From: Cunninghamella blakesleeana
Lineage: Eukaryota > Mucoromycota > Mucoromycetes > Mucorales > Cunninghamellaceae
Assembly: GCA_017871115.1 (NCBI GenBank)
Contig: JAFCIZ010000008.1
Span: 744,001-808,000 of the forward strand
Length of the DNA: 64,000 nt
Reading direction: 5' to 3'
Positions within the stretch are counted from its first letter, which is position 1. Each line of letters opens with the position of its first letter. The notes below the pieces were generated by a model, which made no database searches, had not been told where the DNA came from, and saw only the letters and a list, made by a program, of their open reading frames with translations. Position numbers and translations under genes: made by a program. Positions 24,640 through 58,610 of the stretch are shown in pieces.

Positions 24640-26352
24640 TTAATATATATGAAAATTGTATTTATCAGAGCAACAGGTAACTTCCTTGTAATTTCCTCTT
24701 AAAGAGTATCTTGAGAGCAATATCCATTTATTTTGAGCCATATTACCAAGTAAGACTATGCGACTTCCTTTCAAAGGAAGAATTTCATTAAAATCTGGTA
24801 TTGTAAAAGTGAAAAATGGTATCCATATAAATTTTAGACTATCATCATCTTTTAATGAATAATTCGATAAAAAACTTTGATCAAATATATGTTCTTCCAT
24901 TTCAATAATAAAGTATTTAATCGATTTGATAGAAAGGTAACAATAGTCGGGGTTCAATTGAATAGCCAATATATTGTCTGTATATATTGATCCAAACTCT
25001 TTTTTGGTATTATCTAATATTTGTCGCATAATATCATAACTTCCATACATTTTGTAACCAAAACTTAATACATAAGCTGAGTATACCTCATGAGCTATAT
25101 CAGCTTTATCTTTTTCATTTAAATATAAATAGTCACCGTTACATTGACTAGCATAAGAAGGTAGGATAGGCAAACCAATATCAAAATGTGAACACGCATA
25201 AAGTAACCTTGCTTTGTCCCATAAATCATCCATCAATTCGTATAATTTTAATCTGACGGATATCATATCAGTGATATTCCAATTTGATATTGTATTTTTA
25301 TTTTTAATTAAATAGTTGTATTTCTTCCACGATGATAAAATAGCATTAAATCGGTCTTCATTTCTAGTTGCATTAGAATTTAACAGCATATTTAAATGGT
25401 CTTGTTGTATAAACCTTGTTCTTAAAAAGTTGATGAATTTTCTGCTGCTATCCACCTGTGAATAGTTTATTTTGTTGTTGCTATCGTCTTTGCTATCTTT
25501 GGAGCTATCGCTGTGGCTGTGGATATTTATGTTTGTAGGTTGATGATCAAAGGAGTATGAAAAAAAAGTAGTTACTTCACTAAATAGTACATACACAAAT
25601 ATATATTTCAATGGTGTTCCTTGATTTTTTTCTTTTTCTTTTGCAATTTGGTATTCACTGATCACCCAGGCACGATTTGACCAGTCTTGGGTAAGATAAG
25701 CTAAAAATTCATATACTTTTTTTATGTCTTCAATTTTTCCATCCAGCTTATTGTTATATTCATCGCATGATTGGCGATCGTATATAAAATAGTTTAAAAG
25801 TTGACGCGGCTTATTTTTAACATTAATTTCCTTATCTTTGGTACTGTCTTCATTTGCTGACGTACCATTGTTGAGAATATCCACATAAATAGTCTTTCTA
25901 TATTTTTCCACCAAATCAAGTAAATATCTATTTGCAGGATTATATCTTAAATATTCATAATGTAAATCAGGCACTGCCAAGATGTAAGTAGCTCTTTTAT
26001 ATATTTCTGACATTTTTAAAATTGTGTCTTTTTTTCTTTCATTATTAAGTTGATCCACCGATATAGCATCTATCCATAAATACTGAATTTCCTTTAGGTC
26101 TGTCTCTTGTTTTATATAATGACAAAGCTGTGCCAAACTTCTTAAATGAAATGATGTAATATGAGCTATATAATCTGGTGTTTTCACTAGCTGTTCGTCC
26201 ATTTCACCCCAGCGATAAGATATAGCTATATATTTCAAGCTTTGATCATACATATTCCTTTTTATACATTTTATATCATGACTATTCACAGAATAAAAAT
26301 TTTCAGCTGCAACTTTTATATCGGTAAGTACCAGATCAAAACCTGAATCCAT
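24640..26352 (-). CDS. HET-domain protein (heterokaryon-incompatibility-like)
   Basis: A single long frame starts at the ATG at 26352 (MDSGFDLVLTDIKVAAEN), or at 26342 as the second exon of a gene starting at 26648 (see the PIP exon entry). The N-terminal HET domain is clear: YIAISYRWGEMDEQ (family Y-x-A-L-S-Y-x-W-G), then IQYLWIDAISVDQLNNERKK (family L-W-I-D-x-x-C-I-D-Q-x-N), then MSEIYKRATYILAVPD and finally WSNRAWVISEYQIAKE (family W-x-x-R-A-W-x-x-Q-E). The Cys of the classic CIDQ is Val here. A C-terminal region of about 300 residues is not recognised. HET proteins of Ascomycota trigger cell death after non-self fusion; a similar role in this fungus is inference. Two decayed copies lie at 8930-10594 and 17700-18330. 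Confidence 0.85.
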   Translation of the reverse strand: MDSGFDLVLTDIKVAAENFYSVNSHDIKCIKRNMYDQSLKYIAISYRWGEMDEQLVKTPDYIAHITSFHLRSLAQLCHYIKQETDLKEIQYLWIDAISVDQLNNERKKDTILKMSEIYKRATYILAVPDLHYEYLRYNPANRYLLDLVEKYRKTIYVDILNNGTSANEDSTKDKEINVKNKPRQLLNYFIYDRQSCDEYNNKLDGKIEDIKKVYEFLAYLTQDWSNRAWVISEYQIAKEKEKNQGTPLKYIFVYVLFSEVTTFFSYSFDHQPTNINIHSHSDSSKDSKDDSNNKINYSQVDSSRKFINFLRTRFIQQDHLNMLLNSNATRNEDRFNAILSSWKKYNYLIKNKNTISNWNITDMISVRLKLYELMDDLWDKARLLYACSHFDIGLPILPSYASQCNGDYLYLNEKDKADIAHEVYSAYVLSFGYKMYGSYDIMRQILDNTKKEFGSIYTDNILAIQLNPDYCYLSIKSIKYFIIEMEEHIFDQSFLSNYSLKDDDSLKFIWIPFFTFTIPDFNEILPLKGSRIVLLGNMAQNKWILLSRYSLRGNYKEVTCCSDKYNFHIY

Positions 26353-26456
26353 ATTAATAGATATATATATATATAGAATAAATATGAGATAAAATAAAAT
26401 AAAAATTGTTAATAAATACTTTTTATAATACAACTCTTTACATAAGTATATATATC

Positions 26457-26648
26457 TTAGTTGCTATTACTTTTTCCTTTTACTTTTTTCTCTTGGTGTT
26501 TAAAATAGTCTATTATTGTCTTTTTTTTTGGTTTTATTGAAAAGTAGTCATTTAACCTGGTTTGTTTTTGTTGCCTTACTTTAAATATTGTTCGATGGAT
26601 TGATATGTTACTACACTGAAAATAATTGAGAAGTGTGGTTTGTATCAT
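26457..26648 (-). CDS. Small ORF with tandem PCNA-binding (PIP) boxes; probable first exon of the HET gene
   Basis: The 63-codon frame carries QTTLLNYF at residues 3-10 and QTRLNDYF at about 29-36, both exact PIP boxes (Q-x-x-L-x-x-aromatic-aromatic). A third degenerate one, KTIIDYF, sits in a Lys-rich context typical of PCNA ligands. It could stand alone, but a donor at 26470 (A|GTAATA) and an acceptor at 26343 (TTCAG|GT) would remove about 128 bp and join it in frame to the HET domain. The joined model is 1881 nt, or 626 residues, and skips the ATG at 26352. The remnant at 18130-18330 has the same PIP-then-HET order. PCNA binding is predicted from the motif only. Confidence 0.6.
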   Translation of the reverse strand: MIQTTLLNYFQCSNISIHRTIFKVRQQKQTRLNDYFSIKPKKKTIIDYFKHQEKKVKGKSNSN

Positions 26649-28622: not shown

Positions 28623-29214
28623 ATGAATAGAATGTCTGCCGAACTCGCCGTCGTTTATGCTGCTCTCATCCTCCAAGATGATAATGTTGAAATCACTGTA
28701 AGTTCAACTACTATTTTACTATTTTATATGGACTATTGTAGATAATAAGCGTGTTTAATATAAACCCGAATAACTGAATATTGTATTCATTTTGAAAAAA
28801 TTACCTAATTTATTTATAGGCTGACAAGCTCCAAACTCTTGTAAAAGCTGCTGGTGTTGAAGTTGAACCTATCTGGTTCTCTTTATACGCTAAGGCCCTC
28901 GCTGGTCAAAACCTCGGTGAACTCCTCTTAAATGTCGGTGCTCCTGGTGCTGGTCCTGCTGTTGCTGCTGGTGGTGCCGCTGCTGGTGGTGCTGCTGAAG
29001 AAGCTGCTGAAGAAGCCAAGGAAGAAGAAAAGGAAGAATCTGATGATGTAAGTTTGAATGATAATATATATATATATTTATTTATAAAAGAGTTTTGATT
29101 ATTTCGCGTTTTGGGTATAACTATTTTCATGATGGCATTGTATATTAATATCTTTTTTTATTTTTTAATTTTCTTTTAATTTAACAGGATATGGGCTTCG
29201 GTCTTTTCGATTAA
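28623..29214 (+). CDS. RPP1: 60S acidic ribosomal stalk protein P1
   Basis: Three exons: 28623-28697, 28820-29047 and 29188-29214, totalling 330 nt, or 109 residues. The usual P1 start is [17 protein letters not shown], from the in-frame ATG at 28632; the ATG at 28623 adds only Met-Asn-Arg. The N-terminal dimerisation helices include [18 protein letters not shown]. An Ala/Gly hinge leads to an acidic tail ending DDMGFGLFD, the invariant GTPase-recruiting end of P proteins. P1 pairs with P2 on uL10 and recruits elongation factors. Codons are GC-richer than in neighbours (Ala GCT, Gly GGT), as expected for a very highly expressed gene. Confidence 0.97.
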
Positions 29215-56835: not shown

Positions 56836-57176
56836 ATAATAATTATTTATTATTTACTCATATTTATATTTATATTTACATATAGCTACATTAATCATCT
56901 ATTCTTTCCTTCTCTCTCTTTCTTTTTTTTAAAAAAATAATCATAATAAAAAAGAATATTGTATATTACCTCATATATATAATTGCTTGGTATCTTCTCC
57001 TTATAAAAAAATCAGGGGGAAAAAAAATTTTAACCGAATTATTTTTCTATAAAATGATTGTATTTTCATTTCCATTTTTCTTTTGTTTTTTCTCTAATTT
57101 TTTTTACATTTTATATTTTTCTTTTCCCACTCTTTTTATTTATATATATATATATATATTTATAAATATACATTCA
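56836..57176. other. Intergenic between TMEM164 and the Asn-rich gene
   Basis: A T8A7 palindrome lies at 56933-56947, followed by a T-rich leader at 57055-57150. The open frame of this leader is hydrophobic only because it is T-rich, so I do not count it as protein. Confidence 0.5.
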
Positions 57177-58610
57177 ATGGAATATGGTCACATTTTGACA
57201 TTATCACCCGACGCAAAAGTAGGATCTGACTTTGCTAATGATTTACTTGCTCAATTTGAAATAAGTCAAACTTCATCCTTATTTAGTACCATGAATAACC
57301 AAGACTCTGAAGAAGACGATTTAGATTTAAGTAATAATAATAATACTTTATATATTGGCAATGAAACTGAACTTGAAGATATAAATAATAATAATAGTAA
57401 TAATAATGCGGTAGAAGCAACAATACCTCAACAACATATTGAAATAAATAAAAAGAGGGATATAATAAATAATATACAATCGACTGAAAATAATACAGTG
57501 GAAAATAATGCTATAAATCATAATAATATGGATAATGATAAGAAAATTTCAGATGATGATAAGGATAAAGATAAAAAAGAAAATAAGGATACTCTGGACC
57601 AAATGGATATTGATAATGCTGTAGAAACGCTCATACAAACACCTCTCATTGAAAACGATAATAAAAATAATAATATTAATAACGATGAAAATAAAAAAAC
57701 TGACAGCGACAAGAGTAAAAATAATCAGGTGACACCAATTGTGGAACAATCAACAACAACAACAACAGTGCTACAACAACAACAAACAAAAGAAATAAAC
57801 AATAAAAATGATATGGATGATACTACTACTACTACTAATAAGAATGACAATAATATAAATAATGATCAACTTATTACTACTATTAACAATAAGGAAAATC
57901 ATTTAGATCATCATCAAATGGATAACATAAATATAAAAAATGATTCGATAAAAAATAATACGTTTCCAAGAAGATCAAAAACTTTGAAATTAAATTCTTC
58001 ATCCACCAAAAAAAGATCTCTTTTGAGGCGATCCTCAGCTTACCTTCGTCAAAAATTTTTTGCTTCCTCAACAACATCACCTAACTCACCTCCACTTCCT
58101 TCACAATCCGATATTTCTACTACTCTTTTGGATGATAATATTAATATAAAATCTGTTGCTACTTCCACTCCTGTTCCTTCTCCTCCCAATTCTAATCCTA
58201 AAGTGGATACGCCATTAATAAAAAATAATGAAAAAATCAATCATGATAATAGTCAAAATGATAAGATTGATAATAACGTAGACATTAGAATAAATCATGA
58301 TGAAGCTATGGATTATGGTCAAAACAACAATAATAATATGAACGATACCACTACTCTAGATAACCAACAGCAACAACAACAAAATAGGTCGGCTGATACA
58401 ACAACCAATACCTTACCAATGATCCCGCCTATGGTTACGCCTTGTCAATATCCTCCAAAACCATTAACCTATTCAGCTATTGTAGACCCTCCTAATGATA
58501 ATCATAGATCTTCATTTCCTATACTCCATTCTTGGCGAATTTCCATGTTGGATCCTAGAAGAAAATCTGAACCAGTAGTACAACCAAAAAAACGTCGTTC
58601 TATTTTTTAA
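57177..58610 (+). CDS. Asn/Asp-rich low-complexity protein of unknown function
   Basis: Intronless frame of 477 residues from MEYGHILTLSPDAKVGSDF; the upstream ATG at 57054 only adds T-rich leader. Residues about 50-260 are Asn/Asp/Lys-rich with poly-N, poly-T and poly-Q runs. A basic patch, RRSKTLKLNSSSTKKRSLLR then SSAYLRQKFFASSTT, resembles phosphorylation-regulated linear motifs (R-x-x-S). The C-terminus is better ordered in character: YPPKPLTYSAIVDPP, SFPILHSWRISMLDPRRKSE and the ending PKKRRSIF, a possible nuclear signal. No domain is recognised. It is likely disordered and could be a signalling scaffold or nuclear regulator; that is a guess from composition. Confidence 0.7.
   Translation: MEYGHILTLSPDAKVGSDFANDLLAQFEISQTSSLFSTMNNQDSEEDDLDLSNNNNTLYIGNETELEDINNNNSNNNAVEATIPQQHIEINKKRDIINNIQSTENNTVENNAINHNNMDNDKKISDDDKDKDKKENKDTLDQMDIDNAVETLIQTPLIENDNKNNNINNDENKKTDSDKSKNNQVTPIVEQSTTTTTVLQQQQTKEINNKNDMDDTTTTTNKNDNNINNDQLITTINNKENHLDHHQMDNINIKNDSIKNNTFPRRSKTLKLNSSSTKKRSLLRRSSAYLRQKFFASSTTSPNSPPLPSQSDISTTLLDDNINIKSVATSTPVPSPPNSNPKVDTPLIKNNEKINHDNSQNDKIDNNVDIRINHDEAMDYGQNNNNNMNDTTTLDNQQQQQQNRSADTTTNTLPMIPPMVTPCQYPPKPLTYSAIVDPPNDNHRSSFPILHSWRISMLDPRRKSEPVVQPKKRRSIF

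Follow-up and report, generated by a model that had tools for sequence, protein, structure and literature searches.

A HET-domain gene of Cunninghamella blakesleeana with a first exon of tandem predicted PCNA-binding boxes, and its relatives in the genus

A gene for a HET-domain protein on the reverse strand of a 64,000-nucleotide stretch of Cunninghamella blakesleeana DNA (the window; C8:744001-808000 of the searched 31.9-Mb assembly of 12 contigs) was found to begin with a short predicted exon, the leader, that carries tandem PCNA-interacting protein (PIP) boxes. HET domains are known for their part in cell death in fungi, and PIP boxes are the short motifs with which replication proteins hold on to the clamp PCNA. 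The preferred reading, to which a probability of about 0.6 is given, is that the gene belongs to an expanded, genus-level Cunninghamella family of HET proteins tethered to PCNA by this first-exon leader. An initial annotation, made from the letters of the window alone, had proposed that the HET gene begins with tandem PIP boxes. The paralogues, annotated proteins from two species, the position of the intron and the pattern of selection all support this proposal.

The leader was read from a frame of 63 codons at 26648-26457 (-), which begins MIQTTLLNYF and continues with the boxes QTRLNDYF and KKTIIDYF. Based on the pattern Q-x-x-[ILM]-x-x-[FY]-[FY], the first two boxes are strict and the third has K for Q, matching the two perfect boxes and one degenerate box counted in the initial annotation. 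Splicing of 26471 to 26342 would produce a single frame of 626 amino acids (aa); the intron of about 128 bp that had been postulated at 26470-26343 corresponds to a predicted 128-nt GT-AG intron in phase 1. The HET domain, previously called clear, was matched over the whole of the Pfam profile (1-146 of 146) with 51.3 bits, against a gathering cut-off of 22.5, and an E value of 2.1e-13. The nearest named protein to the window's HET protein was from Cunninghamella echinulata, with 95% identity over 86% of the query, and C. blakesleeana came next.

Used as the query, the small frame matched 16 places of the genome at a limit of E <= 1, with E values from 4e-37 to 0.042. Thirteen of these, the window's own included, had a HET match 78-149 bp downstream in the same orientation, and two (L047 and L049) preceded HET relics. 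The remaining match, L048 (C8:1072869-1073039), was a lone leader relic with box 1 missing, and no HET piece was found at E 0.01 in the 5-kb stretch. Incomplete members were also present among the 13 leader-HET places, where C8_818 lacked box 1 and the leader of C8_221 was matched only at E 0.042. An in-frame GT-AG join was possible at 12 of the 13 places, ten in phase 1 and two in phase 0 (C8_221 and C8_912); at the thirteenth, C6_3864, a stop falls within exon 1 and the sole join returned cuts box 3. Two HET genes, C7_1985 and C10_577, exhibited a different short first exon, also followed by a phase-1 intron before the HET exon, which suggests that the PIP exon occupies the slot of an ordinary first exon. 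In total, 22 Pfam HET places were found in the genome, 13 of them with a leader. Contig C8, which makes up 5% of the genome, accounted for 10 of these 22 places and for 9 of the 16 leader matches, some of them in close pairs (e.g. L025, L026, L033). Two further leaders used as queries returned, in their own genome, already known leader places together with three at E 0.056 to 0.16 (C5:1023929, C8:322192 and C6:3578008).

Two observations were made on individual copies. At L028 (C6:3863839-3864018), a stop follows immediately after box 3, and P0122, a small open reading frame (ORF) on a short contig, has a near-identical leader that is uninterrupted; judged by these sequences, intact and broken forms of this type of leader seem to exist. 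L029 and L030 (C5:664257 and C5:673850) are near-identical decayed leader-HET copies about 10 kb apart, with the likeness extending into the upstream region, and represent a recent duplication of a decayed gene.

Alternatively, the small frame could be an upstream reading frame, with the HET protein starting at the ATG at 26352. From that ATG to 24640 there is indeed an intact 570-aa HET frame without the leader, and the annotated near-relatives P0002 and P0003 also begin further inside and are leader-less. However, the conserved sequence FDLVLVDI precedes the first methionine of these truncated models, and the annotated relative P0005 reads EKSFDLVLVDI, the product expected from splicing at the same acceptor. 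The paralogue C8_909 has TTG where the window has the intronic ATG, together with the same CAG acceptor. Given this missing ATG, the joined models annotated in two species and the introns that join 12 of the 13 leader-HET places in frame, a separate upstream gene was rejected as extremely improbable. The initial annotation had also considered that PIP and HET parts might always be separate genes in homologues; the opposite was found, as they are fused in the paralogues and in both species.

A chance origin of the tandem boxes was likewise rejected. Strict matches to the PIP pattern in the open stretches of all six frames of the window numbered 12, and the only pair within 60 residues was that of the leader. 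When the 63-aa peptide was shuffled 200,000 times, two or more strict boxes appeared at a rate of 3e-5. The tests of identity and selection were performed on 11 of the 13 leader-HET places, omitting C6_3864 (stop in exon 1) and C8_818 (box 1 missing). Mean pairwise identity of exon 1 was 65.8% compared with 52.4% after shuffling. The intron was hardly conserved (54.9% versus 50.5%) and the 120 nt upstream of the leader were not conserved (54.6% versus 55.0%). The recurrence of the leader before 12 other HET places is stronger evidence against chance than any shuffle.

In exon 1, the proportion of non-synonymous differences (pN) was lower than that of synonymous differences (pS) in all 55 pairs of the 11 paralogues (pooled 0.229 versus 0.579). 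Within the exon, pN/pS was 0.21 for the boxes and 0.13 for their four core positions, compared with 0.54 for the rest (linker). Conservation of the motifs was then compared across 43 leaders, 12 genomic and 31 annotated. Since the 31 were picked by a pattern requiring Q near position 3, the invariance of the box 1 Q is partly by construction. Of the 43 leaders, 38 had one strict box or more and 24 had two or more, counts to be read with the box-1-like start by which the 31 were picked. For box 2, the letters were Q in 40/40, L or I in 40/40, Y in 38/40 and F or Y in 40/40, with the third and fifth positions free; DYNF and EYNF variants were counted by their F. These variants, with an extra N between the aromatics, were seen in P0015, P0024, P0026 and P0037 of C. 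blakesleeana, and may weaken or alter the predicted PCNA binding. Box 3 kept Y in 40/41 and F in 41/41, with the Q position occupied by K in 31 and by Q in 4 of 40. The terminal F of box 1 was found in 27/42. Mean net flank charge was +3.1 for box 2, +3.2 for box 3 and +0.1 for box 1. PMC6881253 reports that positive flanks raise PCNA affinity, that Q is absent in 34% of curated PCNA binders and that PIP motifs lie mostly in disordered regions. At the level of sequence, the conservation of the leader is that of the PIP pattern described there.

The genome has an ordinary PCNA with which such a leader could pair. The PCNA_C profile matched one place, where the exons read MDNSHVALV, KLMDIDSEHLGIPETEYD and, across the apparent last intron, YYL and APKIGEE, which we take to be the partner-binding segments. 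By comparison with human PCNA, the loop and pocket segments are presumably intact. Seven stretches around XPG-type and MutS-type genes gave two plausible PIP boxes: QSRMMDFF follows an XPG match, and MSGKSQATISSFF lies on the strand of a MutS match, about 3.7 kb ahead of it. Five stretches were without a plausible box, and the remaining strict matches in the seven sit in frames of 37 codons or fewer. The genes with the two boxes are read, from these matches, as FEN1-like and MSH6-like, respectively.

It is conceivable that the leader only resembles PIP boxes and binds something else, such as importin or a different hub, or that it self-associates as an aggregation motif. The absence of Q from most box 3 copies, the loss of the last aromatic of box 1 in 15/42 leaders and the DYNF variants of box 2 would all fit, and the lysine-rich stretches could serve nuclear import. 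Such a ligand is nevertheless regarded as decidedly unlikely, as box 2 varies in the manner of a PIP box at its free third and fifth positions, the core positions are the most constrained, and the same form of motif occurs in the FEN1-like and MSH6-like genes of this genome.

PMC8871960 and PMC6881253 describe a PCNA-coupled destruction signal with TD in positions 5-6 and a basic +4 residue. It was found in 0/43 leaders in strict form and in 1/43 in relaxed form, and box 2 of the window has ND at positions 5-6 and P at +4. A PIP degron of the type used by CRL4-Cdt2 substrates was therefore rejected for the leader. This result bears on a second role for PCNA binding, in which it would serve to switch the HET protein off or to store it: on clamps in growing nuclei the protein would be kept inactive or low, and it would be freed or built up when replication stops. 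HET proteins need restraint in healthy cells, and the same motif conservation and selection evidence would apply to this role. The lack of the destruction signal speaks against it, storage without destruction still being compatible, and overall it is considered rather unlikely.

The age and spread of the leader were assessed in annotated proteins. Among the best 120 of 188 homologues, a strict box was present within the first 80 residues in 27, and two or more in 17. Within the same 120, the leader was found in 0/24 named Absidia, Halteromyces and Chlamydoabsidia homologues, whose annotated start sites, as those of the other models, may be wrong. The 31 aligned annotated leaders came from C. 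echinulata (7) and C. blakesleeana (24), both species having the same PIP-HET fusion. The probable orthologues P0075 and P0077, one from each of these species, are 67% identical and both keep boxes 2 and 3. On a tree of the family, the label 'leader' required 5 changes compared with a shuffle mean of 13.2, and 0/500 shuffles were as low. Only 11 of the 36 inner branches of this tree are starred, degenerate leaders are labelled as leaders, and a label of 'no leader' may reflect truncated models, as for P0002; C1_6743, C8_887 and P0050 are omitted from it, the trimming motif being absent. Owing to these limits, the leader is dated only to before the split of P0075 and P0077. A profile search of leader-sized proteins identified the same leader in five small ORFs, which lie on short contigs, and gave no further family at E <= 10. 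A search with the leader region of P0005 alone matched only P0005, missing known leader carriers, and is uninformative on other proteins. One model from C. blakesleeana, P0071, joins a zinc-ribbon piece to a HET protein. The piece resembles TnpB/Fanzor-type proteins, and the model is either a merged annotation or a mobile element adjoining a HET gene.

The relative P0005 served as a stand-in for the structure of the window's protein. Its residues 1-60 are predicted to be disordered, with block means of the predicted local distance difference test (pLDDT) of 37-55; the model shows short helices over the boxes and a folded HET body. For the HET body, chains of the TIR and nucleoside deoxyribosyltransferase superfamily, to which SARM1, ThsB and DNPH1 belong, headed both second-look lists with weak resemblance, and the HET alignment gave 0 matches to the sequences of solved structures. 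In the alignment of this family, the W and E of a W-x-x-x-E motif are invariant; in the window this is the W-V-I-S-E site, a candidate TIR-type WxxxE.

Under the preferred reading of a PCNA-tethered family, the flexible, basic tail with its two or three PIP boxes would dock the HET protein on PCNA, and the docked protein would collect in nuclei at sites of replication and repair. Its local density would be raised by the multiple boxes of each molecule, or by more than one molecule sitting on the same trimeric ring. The effector would be the HET body, with its invariant WxxxE and a fold distantly like that of TIR/deoxyribosyltransferase proteins. It may be switched on when the protein clusters on clamp-loaded DNA that is foreign, abnormal or over-abundant, or when it is released from such DNA. 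Its action would probably be an attack on NAD+ or nucleotides, after which copying would stop or the compartment would die. In a six-frame search of the genome without intron handling, NB-ARC gave 0 matches and NACHT one below the cut-off, and the Pfam scan of the HET frame gave HET and one match below the cut-off, with no NACHT or NB-ARC. In this genome, where no NLR domains were recognised, the leader may take the place of a sensor. More tentatively still, the family could be a clamp-coupled immune system, in which a TIR-like death effector, hard-wired to PCNA through tandem PIP boxes and multiplied in one genus seemingly without NLRs, would watch replication (foreign nuclei, viruses, plasmids, runaway elements, stalled forks). 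It would kill the compartment once an excess of HET domains has assembled on clamps.

The boxes might instead act as a clamp blocker like p21, filling the ring and stopping copying, with the HET body adding to or controlling the block. The tandem arrangement and the basic flanks around boxes 2 and 3 are consistent with this, and PMC13029412 states that an excess of the PIP protein FAM111A may halt S phase by competing for PCNA. However, the HET exon is under selection too, with pN below pS in 55/55 pairs (pooled 0.302 versus 0.581), and has invariant residues, which makes it unlikely that the leader by itself is the active part; a blocker of this kind is thought quite improbable.

The family was further compared with known systems. 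It resembles the HET proteins of filamentous fungi (PF06985) in its HET match over the cut-off, its many copies and its weak TIR-like fold match, and differs in that its partner module is a PIP leader and not an NLR or another of the known kinds; here the member is from Mucorales, without a known allorecognition role. With p21, FEN1, MSH6 and UNG2, as covered by PMC6881253, it shares the Q-x-x-psi-x-x-aromatic-aromatic motif, the disordered tail and the basic flanks. Those are proteins of replication, repair and the cell cycle, whereas the present family has two or three boxes ahead of a HET domain. FAM111A, an animal PIP-box serine protease and viral restriction factor, likewise has a damaging enzyme tethered to PCNA by a PIP box, and PMC13029412 describes that it restricts viruses and, when unrestrained, leads to apoptosis. 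The tethered-enzyme design is thereby shown to exist. FAM111A differs in being a trypsin-like protease with UBL parts, a single PIP box and an animal distribution; the design is similar and no homology is claimed. No report of a PIP-HET pairing was found among the titles and abstract openings listed by a literature search mostly limited to non-subscription papers, in keeping with the initial annotation, which knew of no description. HET proteins and PIP boxes are both known; as far as the searches go, the novelty lies in their pairing, in the tandem form and in the expansion within a single genus. With a leader whose type of ligand is known, this HET family can be tested directly, both for where the protein is located and for what it watches. 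The leader suggests that an enzyme of self-destruction or defence is stationed at sites of DNA copying. If PCNA binding is true, this would be the first HET or TIR-like effector known to us that is coupled to the replication clamp, and in its design it would be a fungal analogue of FAM111A.

Table 1. Coordinates of the HET gene and its parts within the window.
Feature	Position	Strand	Remarks
Exon 1, PCNA-docking leader (predicted)	26471..26648	-	59 codons and one base; recurrence before HET places, pN < pS, conservation versus shuffles
PIP box 1, QTTLLNYF	26619..26642	-	Strict in 26/43 leaders
PIP box 2, QTRLNDYF	26541..26564	-	Basic flanks, net +4 within five residues each side; Q in 40/40 leaders with letters in the column
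PIP-like box 3, KKTIIDYF	26502..26525	-	K replaces Q; F in 41/41 and Q in 4/40 leaders with letters in the columns
Phase-1 intron (predicted), 128 nt, GTAATA...TTCAG	26343..26470	-	In-frame join; comparison with paralogues
ATG in HET frame within predicted intron, alternative start giving 570 aa	26350..26352	-	
Exon 2 (predicted), HET body and C-terminal part, including stop	24640..26342	-	
Pfam HET match, PF06985, profile 1-146	25654..26232	-	E 2.1e-13; residues 41-233 of the 570-aa frame
W-V-I-S-E, candidate TIR-type WxxxE	25654..25668	-	W and E invariant in the family

Elsewhere in the window the genes are ordinary ones (ABC transporter, Utp25, GCD14, TPP enzyme, F-box protein, prenyltransferase and Mus81-like). 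At 56895-58610 (+) there is an open frame of 571 codons, the 518-aa ATG-started part of which had no Pfam match at E 0.1. Short GC-rich tandem repeats, with units such as GCTGCTGGTGGTGCC, were observed at 28937-29016 within a stretch of 22-24% GC.
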